DNA from: Bradyrhizobium manausense
GTDB taxonomy: Bacteria; Pseudomonadota; Alphaproteobacteria; Rhizobiales; Xanthobacteraceae
Direction of reading: 5' to 3'
DNA length: 64,000 bases
NCBI RefSeq assembly: GCF_018131105.1
Contig: NZ_JAFCJI010000001.1
Span: forward strand, 930,001 to 994,000
Positions 56,682 through 64,000 of the stretch are shown piece after piece. A model generated the notes under the pieces. It did not search any database. It had not been told where the DNA came from and was given only the letters and a program-made list of their open reading frames with translations. Position 1 is the first letter of the stretch. Each line of letters starts with the position of its first letter. Position numbers and translations under genes: made by a program.

Positions 56682-57155
56682 ATGCATATCCGGAATTCTA
56701 TGGGAGCATGTTTGAGGGTCGGTGCTTGCTGGAGCGCGAATCGTTCTGCAATGGTTTGCCTGCTGGCTCTGTTTTCAGCGCTGACCTGGTTTTGTGAAAA
56801 CGCGCTCGCTCAGGAAACGTCGTCCCGGTACGGCATGGGCGGTCGCACGGGACAGTTCGGCGAGATCCGTCAGCAAATCGCTGTGAGCGGTCAACCTTTT
56901 AGAATTGAAGGTCACTGTCAGTCGGCCTGTACCATGTTTTTGAAACTCAAGACTGCGTGCGTCGAGCCGAGCGCTGAACTCCTGTTTCATGCCGGCAGCA
57001 ACCAAAAGGCTACGCAGCAGATGCTGAATTCCTACAATGGCGCCTTGCGCAATTATCTCGTCGCAAATCATATTATGGAGACGACGTCATTCACGACCAT
57101 TTCTGGAAGAGATATCATCCAGAAATTTGGTTATCGGTCGTGTGCAGCAAAGTAG
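56682..57155 (+). CDS. Exported ClpP-fold-like small protein
   Basis: A 157-residue protein with an N-terminal signal anchor (AMVCLLALFSALTWFCENAL then AQ-ET). The segment GHCQSACTMFL ... CVEPSAELLFHAGS resembles the nucleophile-Ser (G-x-C-x-S-A-C) and His regions of periplasmic ClpP/crotonase-fold proteins of the COG3904 type. I see only that local similarity, so the assignment is tentative. AAAGGA lies 7 nt before the ATG at 56682; a later ATG in the signal region is an alternative. The gene precedes the CHAT protein by 55 nt on the same strand. Region 56409-56681 before it holds no recognised feature. Confidence 0.6.
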   Translation: MHIRNSMGACLRVGACWSANRSAMVCLLALFSALTWFCENALAQETSSRYGMGGRTGQFGEIRQQIAVSGQPFRIEGHCQSACTMFLKLKTACVEPSAELLFHAGSNQKATQQMLNSYNGALRNYLVANHIMETTSFTTISGRDIIQKFGYRSCAAK

Positions 57156-57210
57156 CGCATCAACCGTTCCACTTTATTGGTCGTCGGGCGGCACTTTTCA
57201 TGGGTCGCAA

Positions 57211-60200
57211 ATGAGCAGCTTGTCACGGTGGGCACTCGTGCTTTGCCTTGTGCTGAGCTTTGGCACAAAGGCGTCGAGCCAGGAGTCTGCCGAATGCTCC
57301 TTCAATGCCGCGACGACGCAGCAGGCCTGCGAGCCAAATGGAGGCGCGTCGAGCGTTAGCGATCGCCCGGCGAAAAGTCCGCTGCCGCCGAGTTTTCTTC
57401 CTCCGCCGCGATCGATTGCGGATATCACGGCGATTCTCGACAGCGAAAAGCCGGACCCCGCCACCCTGGCCAGAATGAAATCTGCCGCCGACGCTGAGCC
57501 TGCCGATGGTCTTTCGCAGGAATCGCTGGCGAAGTTCTACTATGCCCGATCCGAGGCGAGGGAAATCCTGGGGCGCTCGGTTGATGCATTGGCCGATAGT
57601 CAGCAAGCACTCATCGCCGTGCGACACGTCGACAACGATCGTCTTACGATGCGTATCGCGATGGATATCGTAAGTCGGCTTAAGTCGACGGGGGACTATA
57701 AACGCGCTCTCGCGATGGTAGAGCCGCTTATTGCTGAAGCTGATCAGCCGCGCACAAGGGGAAACTTGTTCCCTCTGCATCATCTTGCTGTTGGAACTGC
57801 GATTGCAATGGGGAATCTGCCGTTGGCGGAGGAGCACCTGCGGCGAGCGCTGGTCCTCATTTCGGAGGCGCGCAACGGTGACCCTCGCTGGCGGTCCTAC
57901 CGCATCAGGGGCAACTCCTGGGAAACTTCAATTGCATTGATGCAAGCGGCAATCTTCGCCGCGCGAGGCCACTTTAGGGATGCCGAGCTCGCTTTTGTCC
58001 AGGCGCGCGAGCTTCGAATTAAATCGATCGATGTTTTCAACAAGCTGGCAAAAACGGACCCGGACGTGCCCCTGGCTTCGGATATGCAAAGACAGGCAGA
58101 TGGATTTTTACTTAACATCGCTACGATGAAATCGCGGCAGGGCCGGTTGGCCGAGGCTGAGTCGGATGCACGCATCGCGTTGTTTTCTCGCCTGAATGCG
58201 GATGGCAAGTACAATCCTCTGACGACCCCCTACGTGACTGGTCTTGCAAAAATCCTGAATTGGGAAAGCCGCTTCTCAGAGGCCGAGAAGCTCGCACGAA
58301 CGAGCCTCGACATCCAGCACACACTTGGCATCGACGATGACCGCCCCAATAATGCCCACGCTCTCTTCTCACTCGGTTCCAGCCTGACTGGCGAGGGGAA
58401 GTCAGATGAAGCGATAAGGGTTTTCGACCAATTGGACCAGGCGATTGCCGCGTGGGATCCTCGACAGAGAGCAACAGTGCTATCCAGCGTCACTCGGATC
58501 AGTGCGCTTTTGGCGTCGAGCCGAAGTGACGAAGCTCTTGGCGCTTCGCAGGCACTCGTCCAACGCGAGATCGCGCGTGTCGGTGAGGGCCATTATGATA
58601 GCGCCTCTGCACACGGCATTCTAGCCATTGCCTTGATGCGCGCAGGCAGGGACGCCGACGCACTTCGCGAGTTCAAGATCGCGCTGCCGGTACTGCAGGC
58701 AGCGGAGCAACAGAACGCCGATGATGGCGATGCTGAAGGGGTGGGACGGGTTCAGGCCCGGTTGAGGTTCGTCGTAGAGAACTACATCAAGCTATTGGCA
58801 ACAGCCCGAAGCCCAGCTGACGATGTCGCCGCTCAGACCTTTATCATGGCCGATTCCATTCGCGGGCACGCGGTGCAGCAGGCTTTGGCGGAGTCGAGCG
58901 CGCGTGTGGCGGCAAAGGATCCGGCACTCGCGGAGCTTGTGCGAAACGAGCAGGATCTGAGCAAGCAACTCAGGGCACAGCTCGGTTCGCTCAACAATCT
59001 TCTGAGCGTGCCGTCGAACGAGCGCGACGAGCAGGTTCTGCGCGATATCGAGAATTCGATCGGGCGATTGCGTATGGATCGCGACGTGGCTCGTGCCGAG
59101 ATCAACAAGCGTTTCCCCGCCTATGCCGATCTCGTCAACCCGAAGCCACCAGGTATCGAGCAGATCAGGGAGGCTCTTCACGACGGCGAAGCGGCGCTGT
59201 CGTTCTACTTCGGAGGCGAGGCAAGCTTCGTGTGGGCGGTACCCAAGAGTGGACCGGTGGCTTTTGCTTCCGTTGAGGCGAAGCCCGACGAGCTCAGACG
59301 CAAGATCCAAAAGCTGCGGGAGGCATTGGAGCCGGACGCGGCGCTGATTTCCGATATCCCGCCGTTCGACGTCGATCTCGGCTACCAGCTCTACTCCATC
59401 CTCCTAAAGCCCGTTGAGGAGGGTTGGAAGAGATCGAAAAGCCTCATCGTGGTGACGAACGGTGCGCTCGGATTGCTGCCGTTGTCACTGTTGCCGACCG
59501 CACCGTCCACGCTGAAGTCCGACGAAGACCCGCCCTTCGCGGCCTATCGAAACGTGCCTTGGTTAGCTCGCACCCATGACATCGCCACTCTGCCATCGTT
59601 GTCGGCGCTCGTCACTCTGCGGTCGCTACCGGCAGGCGCTTCCGGACGCAGGCAACTCATCGCATTCGGCGACCCGCTTTTCAGCGAACAGCAGGCCACG
59701 GAAGCAGAAAGGAAGATCGCGCATGTTGCTCCCTCGGCCGCTGCAATCACGCGCGGCGTGCCGTTCAGGCGGAGATCGATTCCAAGGCTGGAAGGCGTTG
59801 ACAGCGCCGAGCTTGCGATGTTGCCGCGGCTTCCGGACACCGCCGATGAATTGAGGTCGATCGCGATCGCGCTGCACGCCGATCCGTCAAGAGTGCTGAA
59901 GCTCGGGAAGGACGCCAACGAAGAGGTCGTCAAGTCGACGAACCTGTCCGGGTTCAGGGTCGTCGTGTTTGCAACCCATGGCCTCGCGGCGGGTGAACTC
60001 AACGGGCTGACGCAGCCGGCTTTGGCGCTCACCGCGCCAGCCGTCGCCGGCGTCGAGGGTGACGGATTGCTCACCATGGAGGAAATCCTGCAACTGAGGC
60101 TCGACGCGGACTGGGTCATTCTTTCGGCTTGCAACACCGGCGCCGGAGAGGGCGCCGGCGCGGAGGCCGCCTCCGGGCTGGGCCGCGCATTTTTTTATGC

Positions 60201-60450
60201 AGGGACGCGGGCCATCCTCGTCACCAATTGGTCGGTTCATTCGCAGTCGGCAAAGGATCTGGTCACTGATCTGTTCAAGCGGCAAGCCGATGATCCCAAG
60301 CTGACGCGCGCGGAGGCGCTGCGGCAGGCAATGATGGCTCTGATAGACGGGCGGGGCTATGTCGGCGCCGACGGGAAGACCGAATTCGCCTATGCCCACC
60401 CGTTGTTCTGGGCTCCCTACACAATTTTGGGGGACGGCGGGACACGTTGA
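57211..60450 (+). CDS. Exported TPR-CHAT domain protein (caspase-like peptidase)
   Basis: A 1079-residue protein. The signal peptide is MSSLSRWALVLCLVLSFGTK with cleavage after ASS. Residues about 60-560 form helical, TPR-like repeats (for example ARSEAREILGRSVDALADSQ and AHALFSLGSSLTGEGKSDEA). A coiled-coil-like stretch follows near residues 560-640. The C-terminal CHAT domain (about 690-1075) holds the caspase-like dyad His923 (VFATHGLAAGEL) and Cys974 (ILSACNTGAGEGAG), then FFYAGTRAILVTNWSV. The ATG at 57211 gives the signal peptide. A protease acting in the periplasm is likely, with the small upstream protein as possible partner. Codon use in the first part is less GC-rich than the surrounding genes. 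Confidence 0.85.
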   Translation: MSSLSRWALVLCLVLSFGTKASSQESAECSFNAATTQQACEPNGGASSVSDRPAKSPLPPSFLPPPRSIADITAILDSEKPDPATLARMKSAADAEPADGLSQESLAKFYYARSEAREILGRSVDALADSQQALIAVRHVDNDRLTMRIAMDIVSRLKSTGDYKRALAMVEPLIAEADQPRTRGNLFPLHHLAVGTAIAMGNLPLAEEHLRRALVLISEARNGDPRWRSYRIRGNSWETSIALMQAAIFAARGHFRDAELAFVQARELRIKSIDVFNKLAKTDPDVPLASDMQRQADGFLLNIATMKSRQGRLAEAESDARIALFSRLNADGKYNPLTTPYVTGLAKILNWESRFSEAEKLARTSLDIQHTLGIDDDRPNNAHALFSLGSSLTGEGKSDEAIRVFDQLDQAIAAWDPRQRATVLSSVTRISALLASSRSDEALGASQALVQREIARVGEGHYDSASAHGILAIALMRAGRDADALREFKIALPVLQAAEQQNADDGDAEGVGRVQARLRFVVENYIKLLATARSPADDVAAQTFIMADSIRGHAVQQALAESSARVAAKDPALAELVRNEQDLSKQLRAQLGSLNNLLSVPSNERDEQVLRDIENSIGRLRMDRDVARAEINKRFPAYADLVNPKPPGIEQIREALHDGEAALSFYFGGEASFVWAVPKSGPVAFASVEAKPDELRRKIQKLREALEPDAALISDIPPFDVDLGYQLYSILLKPVEEGWKRSKSLIVVTNGALGLLPLSLLPTAPSTLKSDEDPPFAAYRNVPWLARTHDIATLPSLSALVTLRSLPAGASGRRQLIAFGDPLFSEQQATEAERKIAHVAPSAAAITRGVPFRRRSIPRLEGVDSAELAMLPRLPDTADELRSIAIALHADPSRVLKLGKDANEEVVKSTNLSGFRVVVFATHGLAAGELNGLTQPALALTAPAVAGVEGDGLLTMEEILQLRLDADWVILSACNTGAGEGAGAEAASGLGRAFFYAGTRAILVTNWSVHSQSAKDLVTDLFKRQADDPKLTRAEALRQAMMALIDGRGYVGADGKTEFAYAHPLFWAPYTILGDGGTR

Positions 60451-60507: not shown

Positions 60508-62244
60508 TCATGACCTGTGCACCTCGGTCGAACGCTGACGGATGGAAGTCTGCCGTGGGACGGCGGCGTTGAGCTCCCCCCGTCGCGCCAGAGCGCGAAT
60601 GCGGTCCGCGGTCCGGCAGGCGATCGCCTGGATCGTCAGCGACGGATTGGCGCCTCCGACCGTGGGAAAGACCGAGCCGTCACAGATCCACAAGTTCGGA
60701 ATGTCCCAGCTGCGACAATCCGCATCGACGACGCTGGTGCGGGCATCGCTCCCCATGCGCGCGGTTCCGTTGAGATGGCAGGTATCGTCGTCCTGGATCC
60801 AGATGTCGTCTGCGTCGGCCGCCTCCAGCGCACGGCTCATGAATTTGAGGGAGTGGTCGATCAGGCGCTTGTCGTTGTCGCACCAGGAATAGGTGACCCG
60901 GGGAATTCGCAATCCATACTGGTCGACCTCGTCGGCCAGGCTCACCCGATTGGATTCCTGAGGCAGCATCTCGCCGACGATCCTGAGACCGACGACATGA
61001 TTGTAGTCTTTCATGGCCTCGACCAGGCTCTCCCCCCAAAGGCCGCGCGCGCTGAACAATGTGTTCGCCCAGAGCTGCGGCAACGGGCCCTGGCTCATGT
61101 AGGAATAGCCGCCGAAGAAATCCTTGCCCTTGTCTTCGTAGTTCCAGTGCTCGGTGATGGCGAGCGACGGCGGCCCCTTGTAGGAGCGTACCTCGTGCTC
61201 GAGCCGTCCCCACACCGCCTGATTGGACTGCGCCATCAGGTTCTTTCCGACCAGGCCCGAGCTGTTGGCGAGGCCCTCCGGAAAGCGGGCCGTCGCGGAG
61301 TTCAGCAGAAGCCGGGGCGTTTCGATGGCATAACCCGCGACGACGACGTTGCGCGCGCGCTGAAAGCGCCACACGCCGTCCCGATGATAGTGAACCCCGG
61401 ACACGAGCCCGGACGGCTCGACCTCGACGCGACCGACCATCGCGAGATCGCGGATCTCCGCGCCTGCGGCGATTGCGCGTGGAATCCATGTGACCAGTGC
61501 GCTCTGCTTGGCGTTGGTCGAACAGCCGGAGATGCAGAAGCCGCGATAGACGCAAGGGTGGGCCAGACCTCGCGGGGCCGACAGCGTTGCGAGCGGCGTC
61601 TCGGTCCAATTGATGCCCAGCGCCTCGCAACCTTTGGCCAGTGCCCGCGCCGCGCCGTTCAACGGATGAGCGCGGTACGGGTAGCGCGGACGCGGCGGAC
61701 CCCAGGGATAGGTCACCGGGCCCGATATCTTCAGGGCCTGTTCGACTTCGGTGTAGTAGTCCCACATCTCGCGCCAATCGAGCGGCCAGTCGGCGCCGTA
61801 ACCGAGCAAGGTGCGTGACTTGAACCATTCGGGACGGAAGCGGAGCGAGACCATCGCGAAGTGCACCGTCGAGCCGCCAACGGCCTTGCCGCTGTTGTTG
61901 CCGCCAAGCTGCAACGGATTGGCGCCGTCGACGATGCGGTCGTCAGTCCAGTAAAGCTTGGTCTGCTCGGATTCATCCGAGGCGAAATCCTCCAGCGGCC
62001 TGAAATAAGGGCCCGCGTCGAGAGCGACGACAGAGAAACCGTATTCGGCAAGCTTGCAGGCGAGTGTGCCGCCGCCGGCGCCCGTGCCGACGATGGCGAA
62101 ATCGACCGGCTCGCTCTCTCGGTATTGCCGCATCGGCACCCAGCCGCCCGGATGGAACACGTCCGGTGCCCGGCCATCGTGCGCCCTCGTCGCATGGAAG
62201 GGATCACCGGACACGGCGGTTACTCCGGCGCGCCGCGGCATCAT
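60508..62244 (-). CDS. GMC-family FAD dehydrogenase with 3Fe-4S-type cysteine motif
   Basis: A 578-residue GMC oxidoreductase, like the catalytic subunit of gluconate 2-dehydrogenase or FAD-glucose dehydrogenase. The FAD motif is FAIVGTGAGGGTLA (about residues 49-62). Cys231, Cys237 and Cys241 (CVYRGFCISGC) have the C-x5-C-x3-C spacing of the 3Fe-4S ligands in Burkholderia FAD-glucose dehydrogenase. The C-terminal active site shows CHLNGTARMG and GGANPSLTIQAIACRTADRI. The ATG ending at 62244 overlaps the upstream gene by 41 nt; a later ATG ending at 62133 would avoid this. It ends a cluster with a subunit-3-like protein and a membrane protein. The substrate is likely a sugar or sugar acid. 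Confidence 0.87.
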   Translation of the reverse strand: MMPRRAGVTAVSGDPFHATRAHDGRAPDVFHPGGWVPMRQYRESEPVDFAIVGTGAGGGTLACKLAEYGFSVVALDAGPYFRPLEDFASDESEQTKLYWTDDRIVDGANPLQLGGNNSGKAVGGSTVHFAMVSLRFRPEWFKSRTLLGYGADWPLDWREMWDYYTEVEQALKISGPVTYPWGPPRPRYPYRAHPLNGAARALAKGCEALGINWTETPLATLSAPRGLAHPCVYRGFCISGCSTNAKQSALVTWIPRAIAAGAEIRDLAMVGRVEVEPSGLVSGVHYHRDGVWRFQRARNVVVAGYAIETPRLLLNSATARFPEGLANSSGLVGKNLMAQSNQAVWGRLEHEVRSYKGPPSLAITEHWNYEDKGKDFFGGYSYMSQGPLPQLWANTLFSARGLWGESLVEAMKDYNHVVGLRIVGEMLPQESNRVSLADEVDQYGLRIPRVTYSWCDNDKRLIDHSLKFMSRALEAADADDIWIQDDDTCHLNGTARMGSDARTSVVDADCRSWDIPNLWICDGSVFPTVGGANPSLTIQAIACRTADRIRALARRGELNAAVPRQTSIRQRSTEVHRS

Positions 62245-62854
62245 TCCCATCCTTCGCCTCGGCGGCCTCCCAAGGGTCGCGCTCGTCGATATCGAGCCGC
62301 ACATAGCCGCGCGGGCTCGCGGGGCCGCCCCAACCGATCTCGCTCCAGGCGGTCGGGTGAGCGTAATAGGCGAACACGATGTCCCGCCCCATGCGGGCCT
62401 TGAAGAAGACGTCACAGCGCAAGCCGCCCCATTGATCTGCTTTCAGCTCACCAGCCTGGGCGGAGCGAAGCAGCCTGTCCTGTAACGCCTGCGGCAACTG
62501 CGCAAAGCGCTTGCCATAGGCTGTGGAGGCTTCAGCGTTCAGTGCCTTCAGTCCGAGACGCCACGCATCGCCGTCCCTGGGCATATCGGGCCTGCGAAAC
62601 CCGTCCATGACCCGGTCGTGCAGCTTGCGGTCGACCAGCGCGGCGATCGGCACCGGGGGACGATCGGGCGGCTGTGGAATGAGGTGGTCCGCGATCGCCA
62701 CGACGGTGTCGTATTCGTCGCGTGTGAAGAAGCGCGGCTCAGGCGCGATGGATAATCGCCGCGTGATGACCTCGCGCGTCTTGTCGTTCCAGGACGGTCC
62801 CGACCATTTGGCGAGAACGTCATATCCGGGATAGCGGTCGCGACTTTCATGCAT
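62204..62854 (-). CDS. Gluconate 2-dehydrogenase subunit 3 family protein
   Basis: A 216-residue protein of the small-subunit family that accompanies GMC dehydrogenases. The conserved core is FFTRDEYDTVVAIADHLIPQ, then GLKALNAEASTAYGKRFAQL and the C-terminal GRDIVFAYYAHPTAWSEIGW with GPASPRGYVRLDIDERDPWE. Typical relatives carry a Tat signal on this subunit that exports the complex; none is visible here (start MHESRDRYPGYDVLAKW). It overlaps the membrane-protein gene by 8 nt and the GMC gene by up to 41 nt, so all three are translationally coupled. Confidence 0.87.
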   Translation of the reverse strand: MHESRDRYPGYDVLAKWSGPSWNDKTREVITRRLSIAPEPRFFTRDEYDTVVAIADHLIPQPPDRPPVPIAALVDRKLHDRVMDGFRRPDMPRDGDAWRLGLKALNAEASTAYGKRFAQLPQALQDRLLRSAQAGELKADQWGGLRCDVFFKARMGRDIVFAYYAHPTAWSEIGWGGPASPRGYVRLDIDERDPWEAAEAKDGNDAAARRSNRRVR

Positions 62855-63812
62855 CGGGATGCGCCCTCATGAGGCCGAGTGCAGCCAGACCGGCAAGTGC
62901 GAGGCCAGTGAAGCTCAGCGGCGCGGGAAGCGGCGGTCCGTTCAGAATGTTCTGGCTCCAGTTGCGCCAGCCACCCATGTTTCGTGACACGCCGTACGCG
63001 TGGAAGCCGACACCAGCCAAACCCATGGCCGTCAACACACGCATCCACCCGCGTGTGAAGCGATGCGTCCTGCCGGATCCGCCTGCGGCCGCCGACAGCA
63101 GCAGCGCTGCGCCGACCGGCGGCAGCGTCACCGGGAGAAGCATGAAGGGGTTGTGATAGGCCCCCCGGAAATGGAGCAGGCCGGCCTCGCCAGTCGTGCC
63201 GAGCAGGCCTGCGCCCGCGACCGCGGCGATGGTGCGTCCCGCCGGCAGACCGAAGATGCGCGGGCGAGTTCGGGCCGCTTCCCGCACTCGCTCCGAACAG
63301 AAGCCGAGCAGGCCCGAGAGCAGGATCGCCATCGGCGCGCCGATCGGGGCACCGTAGAATACGTTCTGCCAGCTGAAGCCGCCGACGCGCTTGCCGACGT
63401 TGTAGAGATGAAATCCCGAACCGATCATCCCGGTCGCTGCTGCCAGCAGGTAGGTCGCGTCGCGCGCCTTGTGCGCGAACGGACGCATGTCGGCCGTGCC
63501 ATGGATGCTCGTCGCGAGGGTCAACGCCGAAACTGCAAGGGGCGTGTACATGGCTTTGTTCTTGAACGATCCGCGGTAATGCTCGACGCTGGAATCGGCG
63601 AGCACGGAGGCGGCGAGAGTTCCCGCGGCGCGGTTGAGTTCCTGCGCGGTCTTGACCGTCGCTGCGCGGCCGGACCGAATGCGACGCGGCGCGCGGCGCG
63701 GGCCAGAGCTGCCAGCCGGCGCGGAGGCTGCCGAAAGGAGTGAGACAAGCGCCACGCCGGATGCAGCGATCGCGGCCAGAGCAAGCAGATCGCGTTCCGC
63801 CGGTGGGCTCAT
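62847..63812 (-). CDS. Duplicated histidine-containing integral membrane protein, possible redox partner of the dehydrogenase
   Basis: A 321-residue inner-membrane protein with about eight predicted transmembrane segments. I do not recognise the family. The two halves are internal repeats with a constant offset of 136 residues: HYRGSFKN at 78 matches HFRGAYHN at 214; His114 matches His250; and GFHLYNVGKRVGG at 133 matches GFHAYGVSRNMGG at 269. The second match continues into W-x2-N and GAPIGAP versus GPPLPAP. Thus three histidines per half are conserved with identical spacing. No CxxCH motif is present. The ATG overlaps the upstream enolase-type gene's stop (ATGA), and the stop overlaps the subunit-3 gene. 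A heme- or quinone-binding anchor role is inference. Confidence 0.8.
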   Translation of the reverse strand: MSPPAERDLLALAAIAASGVALVSLLSAASAPAGSSGPRRAPRRIRSGRAATVKTAQELNRAAGTLAASVLADSSVEHYRGSFKNKAMYTPLAVSALTLATSIHGTADMRPFAHKARDATYLLAAATGMIGSGFHLYNVGKRVGGFSWQNVFYGAPIGAPMAILLSGLLGFCSERVREAARTRPRIFGLPAGRTIAAVAGAGLLGTTGEAGLLHFRGAYHNPFMLLPVTLPPVGAALLLSAAAGGSGRTHRFTRGWMRVLTAMGLAGVGFHAYGVSRNMGGWRNWSQNILNGPPLPAPLSFTGLALAGLAALGLMRAHPDA

Positions 63813-64000
63813 GCTGCCTCCGATACTGCGTAAGCGGCGGCATCGGCGCGCTTGAACACCAGGCCGTGTCCCGGCGCCGTCAGATCGGGCGCGATCCGGC
63901 CATCGCGGGGCTGCGGAGCGCCATCGAAAAACATGCGCTCGATCCGGACGTGGTCGTGAAACCATTCCAGATGACGCATGCGGGGTGAAGCACAGGCAAG
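63809..64000 (-). CDS. Enolase-superfamily (mandelate racemase-like) enzyme, C-terminal fragment
   Basis: The last 63 codons and stop of a gene that enters from the right window edge. The peptide includes LEWFHDHVRIERMFFDG and APDLTAPGHGLVFKRADAAA, the C-terminal pattern of mandelate racemase / muconate-lactonizing enzymes, including many sugar-acid dehydratases. The catalytic part is outside the window, so the reaction cannot be named. Its TGA overlaps the ATG of the membrane protein, so it belongs to the same operon. A sugar-acid substrate would agree with the GMC dehydrogenase downstream. Confidence 0.75.
   Translation of the reverse strand, partial: LACASPRMRHLEWFHDHVRIERMFFDGAPQPRDGRIAPDLTAPGHGLVFKRADAAAYAVSEAA

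Follow-up and report, generated by a model that had tools for sequence, protein, structure and literature searches.

An unnamed membrane protein family with a two-histidine module, encoded beside GMC-type dehydrogenase genes

The FAD glucose dehydrogenase of Burkholderia cepacia (6a2u) and fructose dehydrogenase (7w2j) are the closest known parallels to the locus described here; both combine a GMC-type catalytic subunit, three cysteines for a [3Fe-4S] cluster, and a small subunit of the Gluconate_2-dh3 family, all of which recur in our operon. In the known enzyme a cytochrome c accepts electrons from the [3Fe-4S] cluster, while export by the Tat route depends on the small subunit, and enzymes of this GMC type are used in glucose sensors (PMC9727119). 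The cluster ligands of the Burkholderia glucose dehydrogenase are Cys212, Cys218, and Cys222 (PMC6719666). A second point of reference is the "pyruvate oxidase" operon of Asaia bogorensis (Asbog_02184-02187), described as a candidate membrane-associated quinone reductase with an expression profile resembling that of cyo-2 (PMC4596401, 2015). We analysed a 64,000-nucleotide stretch of the Bradyrhizobium manausense genome (the window; positions 930,001 to 994,000 of contig NZ_JAFCJI010000001.1), in which genes for a GMC-type enzyme and its small subunit follow the gene for a membrane protein, here termed Q.

The operon and its dehydrogenase subunits

Q, a predicted membrane protein of two tandem modules, is encoded by a 321-residue open reading frame on the minus strand (62847..63812). 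The reading frame is real, with GGAGG positioned 5′ of its ATG. This ATG shares bases with the stop codon (TGA) of the enolase-superfamily gene upstream, whose 3′ end occupies 63809..64000 (minus) and which continues past the window. The visible fragment of that gene shares 57% identity with a protein from locus L031, itself assigned to PF13378/PF02746, and further upstream, outside the window, comes a gene for a thiamine diphosphate (TPP)-dependent enzyme. On the other side, the end of Q overlaps by eight bases the start of SUB3 (62204..62854, minus), which belongs to the gluconate 2-dehydrogenase subunit 3 family (PF13618, E 4.8e-24; 85.7 bits against a cut-off of 23.4). SUB3 in turn overlaps the gene for the GMC-family catalytic subunit (60508..62247, minus, start codon uncertain), identified by PF05199 (E 8.4e-27) and PF00732 (E 3.8e-17). 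Converging on the GMC gene from the plus strand is a 1137-residue open reading frame (57037-60450) that looks TPR/CHAT-like by eye.

The solved chain nearest to the GMC protein is that of the Burkholderia FAD glucose dehydrogenase (6a2u, E 1.3e-52). Cys227, Cys233, and Cys237 of GMC (numbered from window:60508-62232; codons within 61522..61554, minus) align with Cys212, Cys218, and Cys222 of that enzyme, and are kept in 82/82, 81/81, and 80/80 ungapped rows, respectively, among GMC matches of at least 60% identity. The retention of these predicted [3Fe-4S] ligand cysteines is a new finding for this operon. SUB3, for which a phmmer search of the PDB returned no relatives, carries no recognised export signal: its N-terminal hydropathy reaches a maximum of 1.15 across 84 rows versus 1.45 in the Tat-type paralog of the same genome, a simple hydropathy comparison as distinct from a signal predictor. 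Twin arginines do occur in 26 of the 84 rows, inside a conserved TRRxV segment.

An earlier note on this DNA had seen no cytochrome c subunit beside the dehydrogenase, and the wider sample bears this out for the triheme type, of which there is no match less than 3.9 kb from Q in 80 loci. The tblastn query, the triheme cytochrome of the same B. manausense genome, detects only its own relatives; it matched in five of the 80 loci, the nearest at 3.96 kb. Other cytochrome c types were screened only by CXXCH motifs within recurrent groups of open reading frames, and CXXCH is present in 4/9 reading frames of the oxidase subunit II type. By way of internal contrast, this genome also holds a canonical set (L097) comprising a Tat-type small subunit, a GMC enzyme, and a triheme cytochrome. 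Elsewhere in the same genome a GMC paralog (L095 3257-5381; C1 466756-468880) possesses three similarly placed cysteines and no adjoining Q; its small, signal-less downstream neighbour has no Pfam match.

An unnamed family built from one or two modules

The earlier note called Q an unrecognised membrane protein, and profile searches agree. A Pfam search returned no matches, NCBIfam gave a single sub-threshold match (E 0.37), and sequence and profile searches of the PDB found no relatives. Scans of 27 and 42 aligned members against Pfam and NCBIfam yielded best E-values of a weak 0.0063 to 1, with any one family common to at most three members. A database search in which 8000 candidates were scored nevertheless gave 4012 relatives, and a second one, with the single-module form described below, gave 1956; for neither set did we find a Pfam or NCBIfam model. 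According to annotated records the family spans four phyla, the duplicated form occurring in Acidobacteriota, Pseudomonadota, and some Deinococcota, and the single form in Actinomycetota and Deinococcota. Q belongs to a real, widespread, and unnamed membrane protein family, and its operon is a variation on an established dehydrogenase architecture.

The internal duplication, first noticed as two halves offset by 136 residues, is real. The best ungapped offset between the halves is indeed 136, and their local alignment score of 127 far exceeds those of 2000 shuffles (mean 32.4, maximum 62). Profile-profile alignment of module A (residues 50-187; 63252..63665, minus) with module B (residues 188-321; 62850..63251, minus) using hhalign gave a probability of 99.2% (E 3.3e-19 over 123 columns), compared to 0.3% and 0.6% for reversed-sequence controls, the latter being half B against reversed half A. 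Twelve positions are invariant in 30/30 half-rows, in the order H (78/214), R, G, M, G, H (135/271), G, W, P, A, P, G.

Three histidine pairs had been proposed per protein (78/214, 114/250, and 135/271), and in the window Q all three do lie at the 136-residue offset; when homologues were checked for loss of these residues, two pairs held and the third failed. In an alignment of 85 rows (the window Q and 84 loci), His78 (codon 63579..63581; motif EHxRG), His135 (63408..63410), His214 (63171..63173; motif HxRG), and His271 (63000..63002), all on the minus strand, are each present in 85/85 rows and in 120/120 close relatives. His114 is found in 79/85 rows, and His250 in 17/85, with Arg at that site in 55. 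Among the best 120 of the 4012 relatives, however, His114 occurs in 116 and His250 in 118, so that conservation of the third pair is confined to close relatives. Two further histidines are less constant, His104 being kept in 76/85 rows and His220 in 57/85. The Q protein of Granulicella (Acidobacteriota) keeps all four invariant histidines at 28.8% identity over the matched part; the GMC gene of that locus (L103 8624-10301) is annotated as two overlapping reading frames. Each Q module therefore contains two invariant histidines, not three. Glycines 128 and 131, and their counterparts 264 and 267, lie seven and four residues before His135 and His271, and are conserved in both halves. Small residues similarly surround the hemes of cytochrome b.

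The same unit also stands alone. One such gene, 157 codons long and carried on a Deinococcus plasmid (L104 6908-7381), corresponds to one module, and with its product as query 1956 related proteins were found among 2145 candidates. Within the best 120 of these, 114 have 140-179 residues and all 120 keep both histidines; the names given among the matches listed include Deinococcus and several Actinomycetota. A profile of the single-module family recognises both halves of Q (E 1.1e-21 for A, E 8.7e-20 for B), and one representative, P0311, has no Pfam matches. Three plasmid loci were inspected, and in each the single module precedes the same partners: an 865-residue SUB3-GMC fusion protein in Deinococcus D7000, SUB3 and GMC sequence in Deinococcus AJ005, and SUB3 and GMC genes in Frondihabitans. 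Deinococcus peraridilitoris carries the duplicated form instead. Q is probably two copies of this unit joined by fusion, the unit elsewhere standing alone and there probably forming a dimer. Two other genes were seen in these surroundings. Directly 5′ of the D7000 module lies a gene for a 132-residue VKOR-like protein (L104 6526-6924; PF07884 E 4e-5, below cut-off), and a sensory rhodopsin transducer (ASRT) gene occurs near the operon in four of the plasmid loci inspected (L106 3157-3534, PF07100 E 4.8e-52; by annotation, L104 10031-10417, L107 4676-5053, and L111 10142-10528).

AlphaFold models of fair confidence were obtained for Q (mean pLDDT 84.8, pTM 0.82) and for P0311 (pLDDT 87.2, pTM 0.79). 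Q is predicted to form two tandem four-helix bundles, the eight long helices being accompanied by two short helices and optionally by one more at the start, and the single module to form four long helices. The four invariant histidines sit near the C-terminal ends of long helices 1 and 3 in each half, at a distance of 1 to 7 residues, which would place them on one side of the membrane if the helices alternate. Conservation is 0.81 on this histidine side compared to 0.51 on the other, and Lys/Arg values are 8.0 on the histidine side versus 17.6 on the opposite side of Q, and 5.6 versus 11.2 in single modules. This charge bias suggests that the histidine face is periplasmic. SUB3 and GMC, neither of which shows an export signal, are presumably cytoplasmic, and a periplasmic histidine face therefore creates a real tension. 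Foldseek searches with the models gave no clear match to a solved structure and no heme-protein fold (best E 0.23 and 0.26).

Linkage, distribution, and genomic neighbours

The proposed coupling of Q to a GMC dehydrogenase was borne out by co-occurrence in 80 loci taken from named records. Among the 79 loci whose downstream flank reaches 700 bases, 78 have SUB3 sequence within 2.8 kb after Q, and among the 78 with a flank of 1500 bases or more, GMC follows Q in 76; both also follow Q in four further loci (L099-L102). The sole clear exception (L016 8148-8921) comprises Q and an enolase-family gene with neither SUB3 nor GMC in the 4.2 kb downstream, while the second GMC miss (L035) is a locus at which the contig ends. 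Q was found in two of 100 related genomes, a set that includes the B. manausense genome itself. SUB3 matches occur in ten of these 100, two close and eight weak, and the close two are the Q genomes. GMC matches are present in 92 of the 100, but a close ortholog (92-100%) occurs only in the two Q genomes, the remaining rows listed showing at most 40% identity. Class-wide, Q is present in 4/385 genomes, and phylum-wide in 5/398, which characterises it as a scattered accessory trait.

Other neighbours are frequent but less constant. A TPP gene occurs near Q in 56/69 loci (upstream in the same orientation in 48, divergent in seven, and between in one), and was not found near Q in the other 13, each of the 69 loci having at least 3.2 kb upstream; a 14.4-kb Frondihabitans stretch likewise gave no TPP matches. 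In L033, L035, L048, L072, and L074, a TPP gene sits between Q and SUB3. The TPP protein passes NCBIfam NF006129, with pyruvate oxidase models as the next matches, below their cut-offs. An enolase-family gene lies at most 2.5 kb upstream of Q in 56/74 loci, its product being nearest to L-talarate/galactarate dehydratase, below the cut-off of that model. At some loci the recurrent neighbours encode an SDR, a GH15 protein of trehalase/glucoamylase-like type, and a protein of the SMP-30/gluconolactonase type. The operon likely serves sugar or sugar-acid metabolism. In three of 80 loci (L029, L036, and L075), the genes directly after GMC are of the quinol-oxidase type, for subunits II and I; the tested proteins match COX2 or COX1 in Pfam above cut-off and come closest to CyoA and CyoB, where they score under the NCBIfam cut-offs.

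Possible roles and comparison with known systems

We tentatively propose, at a confidence approaching but short of even, that Q takes electrons from the predicted [3Fe-4S] cluster of GMC and delivers them to the quinone pool, replacing the triheme cytochrome c of the known glucose, fructose, and gluconate dehydrogenases. The proposal rests mainly on a predicted cluster that lacks its usual acceptor and occurs beside a membrane protein that has paired invariant histidines. Under this scheme, the GMC cluster would hand electrons to Q, and Q would pass them to quinone; each module would carry a single heme b, placed between the two helices that bear its histidines, with the single module working as a homodimer and Q as the fused version. 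The invariant histidine pairs fit bis-histidine heme b, which Q would then probably bind. The dehydrogenase would sit on the cytoplasmic face and act in sugar or sugar-acid breakdown with the neighbouring TPP-dependent and enolase-family enzymes. Support comes from the quinol-oxidase-like genes after GMC in 3/80 loci, and from the classing of the Asaia operon with quinone reductases in PMC4596401. The proposal is weakened by the locus in which Q stands alone (L016), the GMC paralog lacking Q (L095), the twin arginines in 26/84 SUB3 rows, the oxidase proteins falling below the CyoA and CyoB cut-offs, and the lack of heme-protein fold matches; the charge bias that puts the histidine face outside counts against its simplest version. 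A broader formulation, that four-helix, two-histidine modules acting as homodimers or tandem fusions, each with a heme b, form a new class of respiratory electron entry from cytoplasmic GMC/[3Fe-4S] enzymes to quinone, is possible, though we lean towards doubting it.

Q may instead be a membrane anchor that has no heme but a quinone site, formed by the conserved His and Arg, at which the cluster reduces quinone directly. The same SUB3/GMC linkage and cluster cysteines would be expected, the invariant H-x-R-G adjoins a predicted helix end, and both the VKOR-like gene directly 5′ of the D7000 single module (with its below-cut-off PF07884 match) and the quinol-oxidase-like genes at three loci fit a quinone-reactive partner. 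Nonetheless, the strict pairing of histidines on helices 1 and 3 in every module would seem to exceed what known quinone sites need, and we consider this reading rather unlikely. The Lys/Arg bias, insofar as it places the conserved face outside, would also suit a non-redox protein, such as a permease for substrate or product or an assembly factor, as would the eight long predicted helices and optional first one. We regard such a role as decidedly unlikely: no transporter family matched above a curated cut-off, a four-helix single module appears small for a carrier, and it leaves unexplained the closer association of Q with SUB3 and GMC than with the catabolic genes.

The name given to the Asaia operon in PMC4596401 raises a further alternative, in which a PoxB-like TPP oxidase is the quinone-linked enzyme, and Q, SUB3, and GMC are its subunits or helpers. 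The TPP gene is indeed near Q in 56/69 loci, and its product passes NF006129 with pyruvate oxidase models next, albeit below cut-off. However, it was not found near Q in 13/69 loci compared to 1/79 for SUB3, the Frondihabitans stretch has no TPP match, and GMC retains both cluster cysteines and FAD-type domains of its own; we consider this the work of a TPP oxidase with very little confidence. Should the electron-entry role of Q be correct, FAD/[3Fe-4S] dehydrogenases would have a second route into respiration, which probably starts on the cytoplasmic side. The single and duplicated forms would present a clean case in which a likely homodimer has become a single fused polypeptide. The tentative "pyruvate oxidase operon" label would become a testable complex.

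The Asaia operon, likened to ours by description only, has the same order of PoxB-like TPP gene, gene for a protein with seven predicted helices, subunit-3 gene, and GMC gene. Since that paper lists such an operon, its status as a quinone-linked candidate has already been published; section 3.5 of PMC4596401 and the literature searched make no mention of the duplication, the histidines, the single-module relatives, or the retained cluster ligands. Glucose dehydrogenase has itself been likened to fumarate reductase (PMC6719666), and the diheme cytochrome b of the latter offers a functional analogy only, comprising flavin, iron-sulfur, and a membrane b-heme subunit; Q has no sequence match to any PDB chain and is modelled as two tandem four-helix bundles. 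Compared to the three-subunit complexes of 6a2u and 7w2j, the Q operon lacks a recognisable Tat-type signal on the small subunit and a triheme-type cytochrome c gene, and has a duplicated membrane protein instead.
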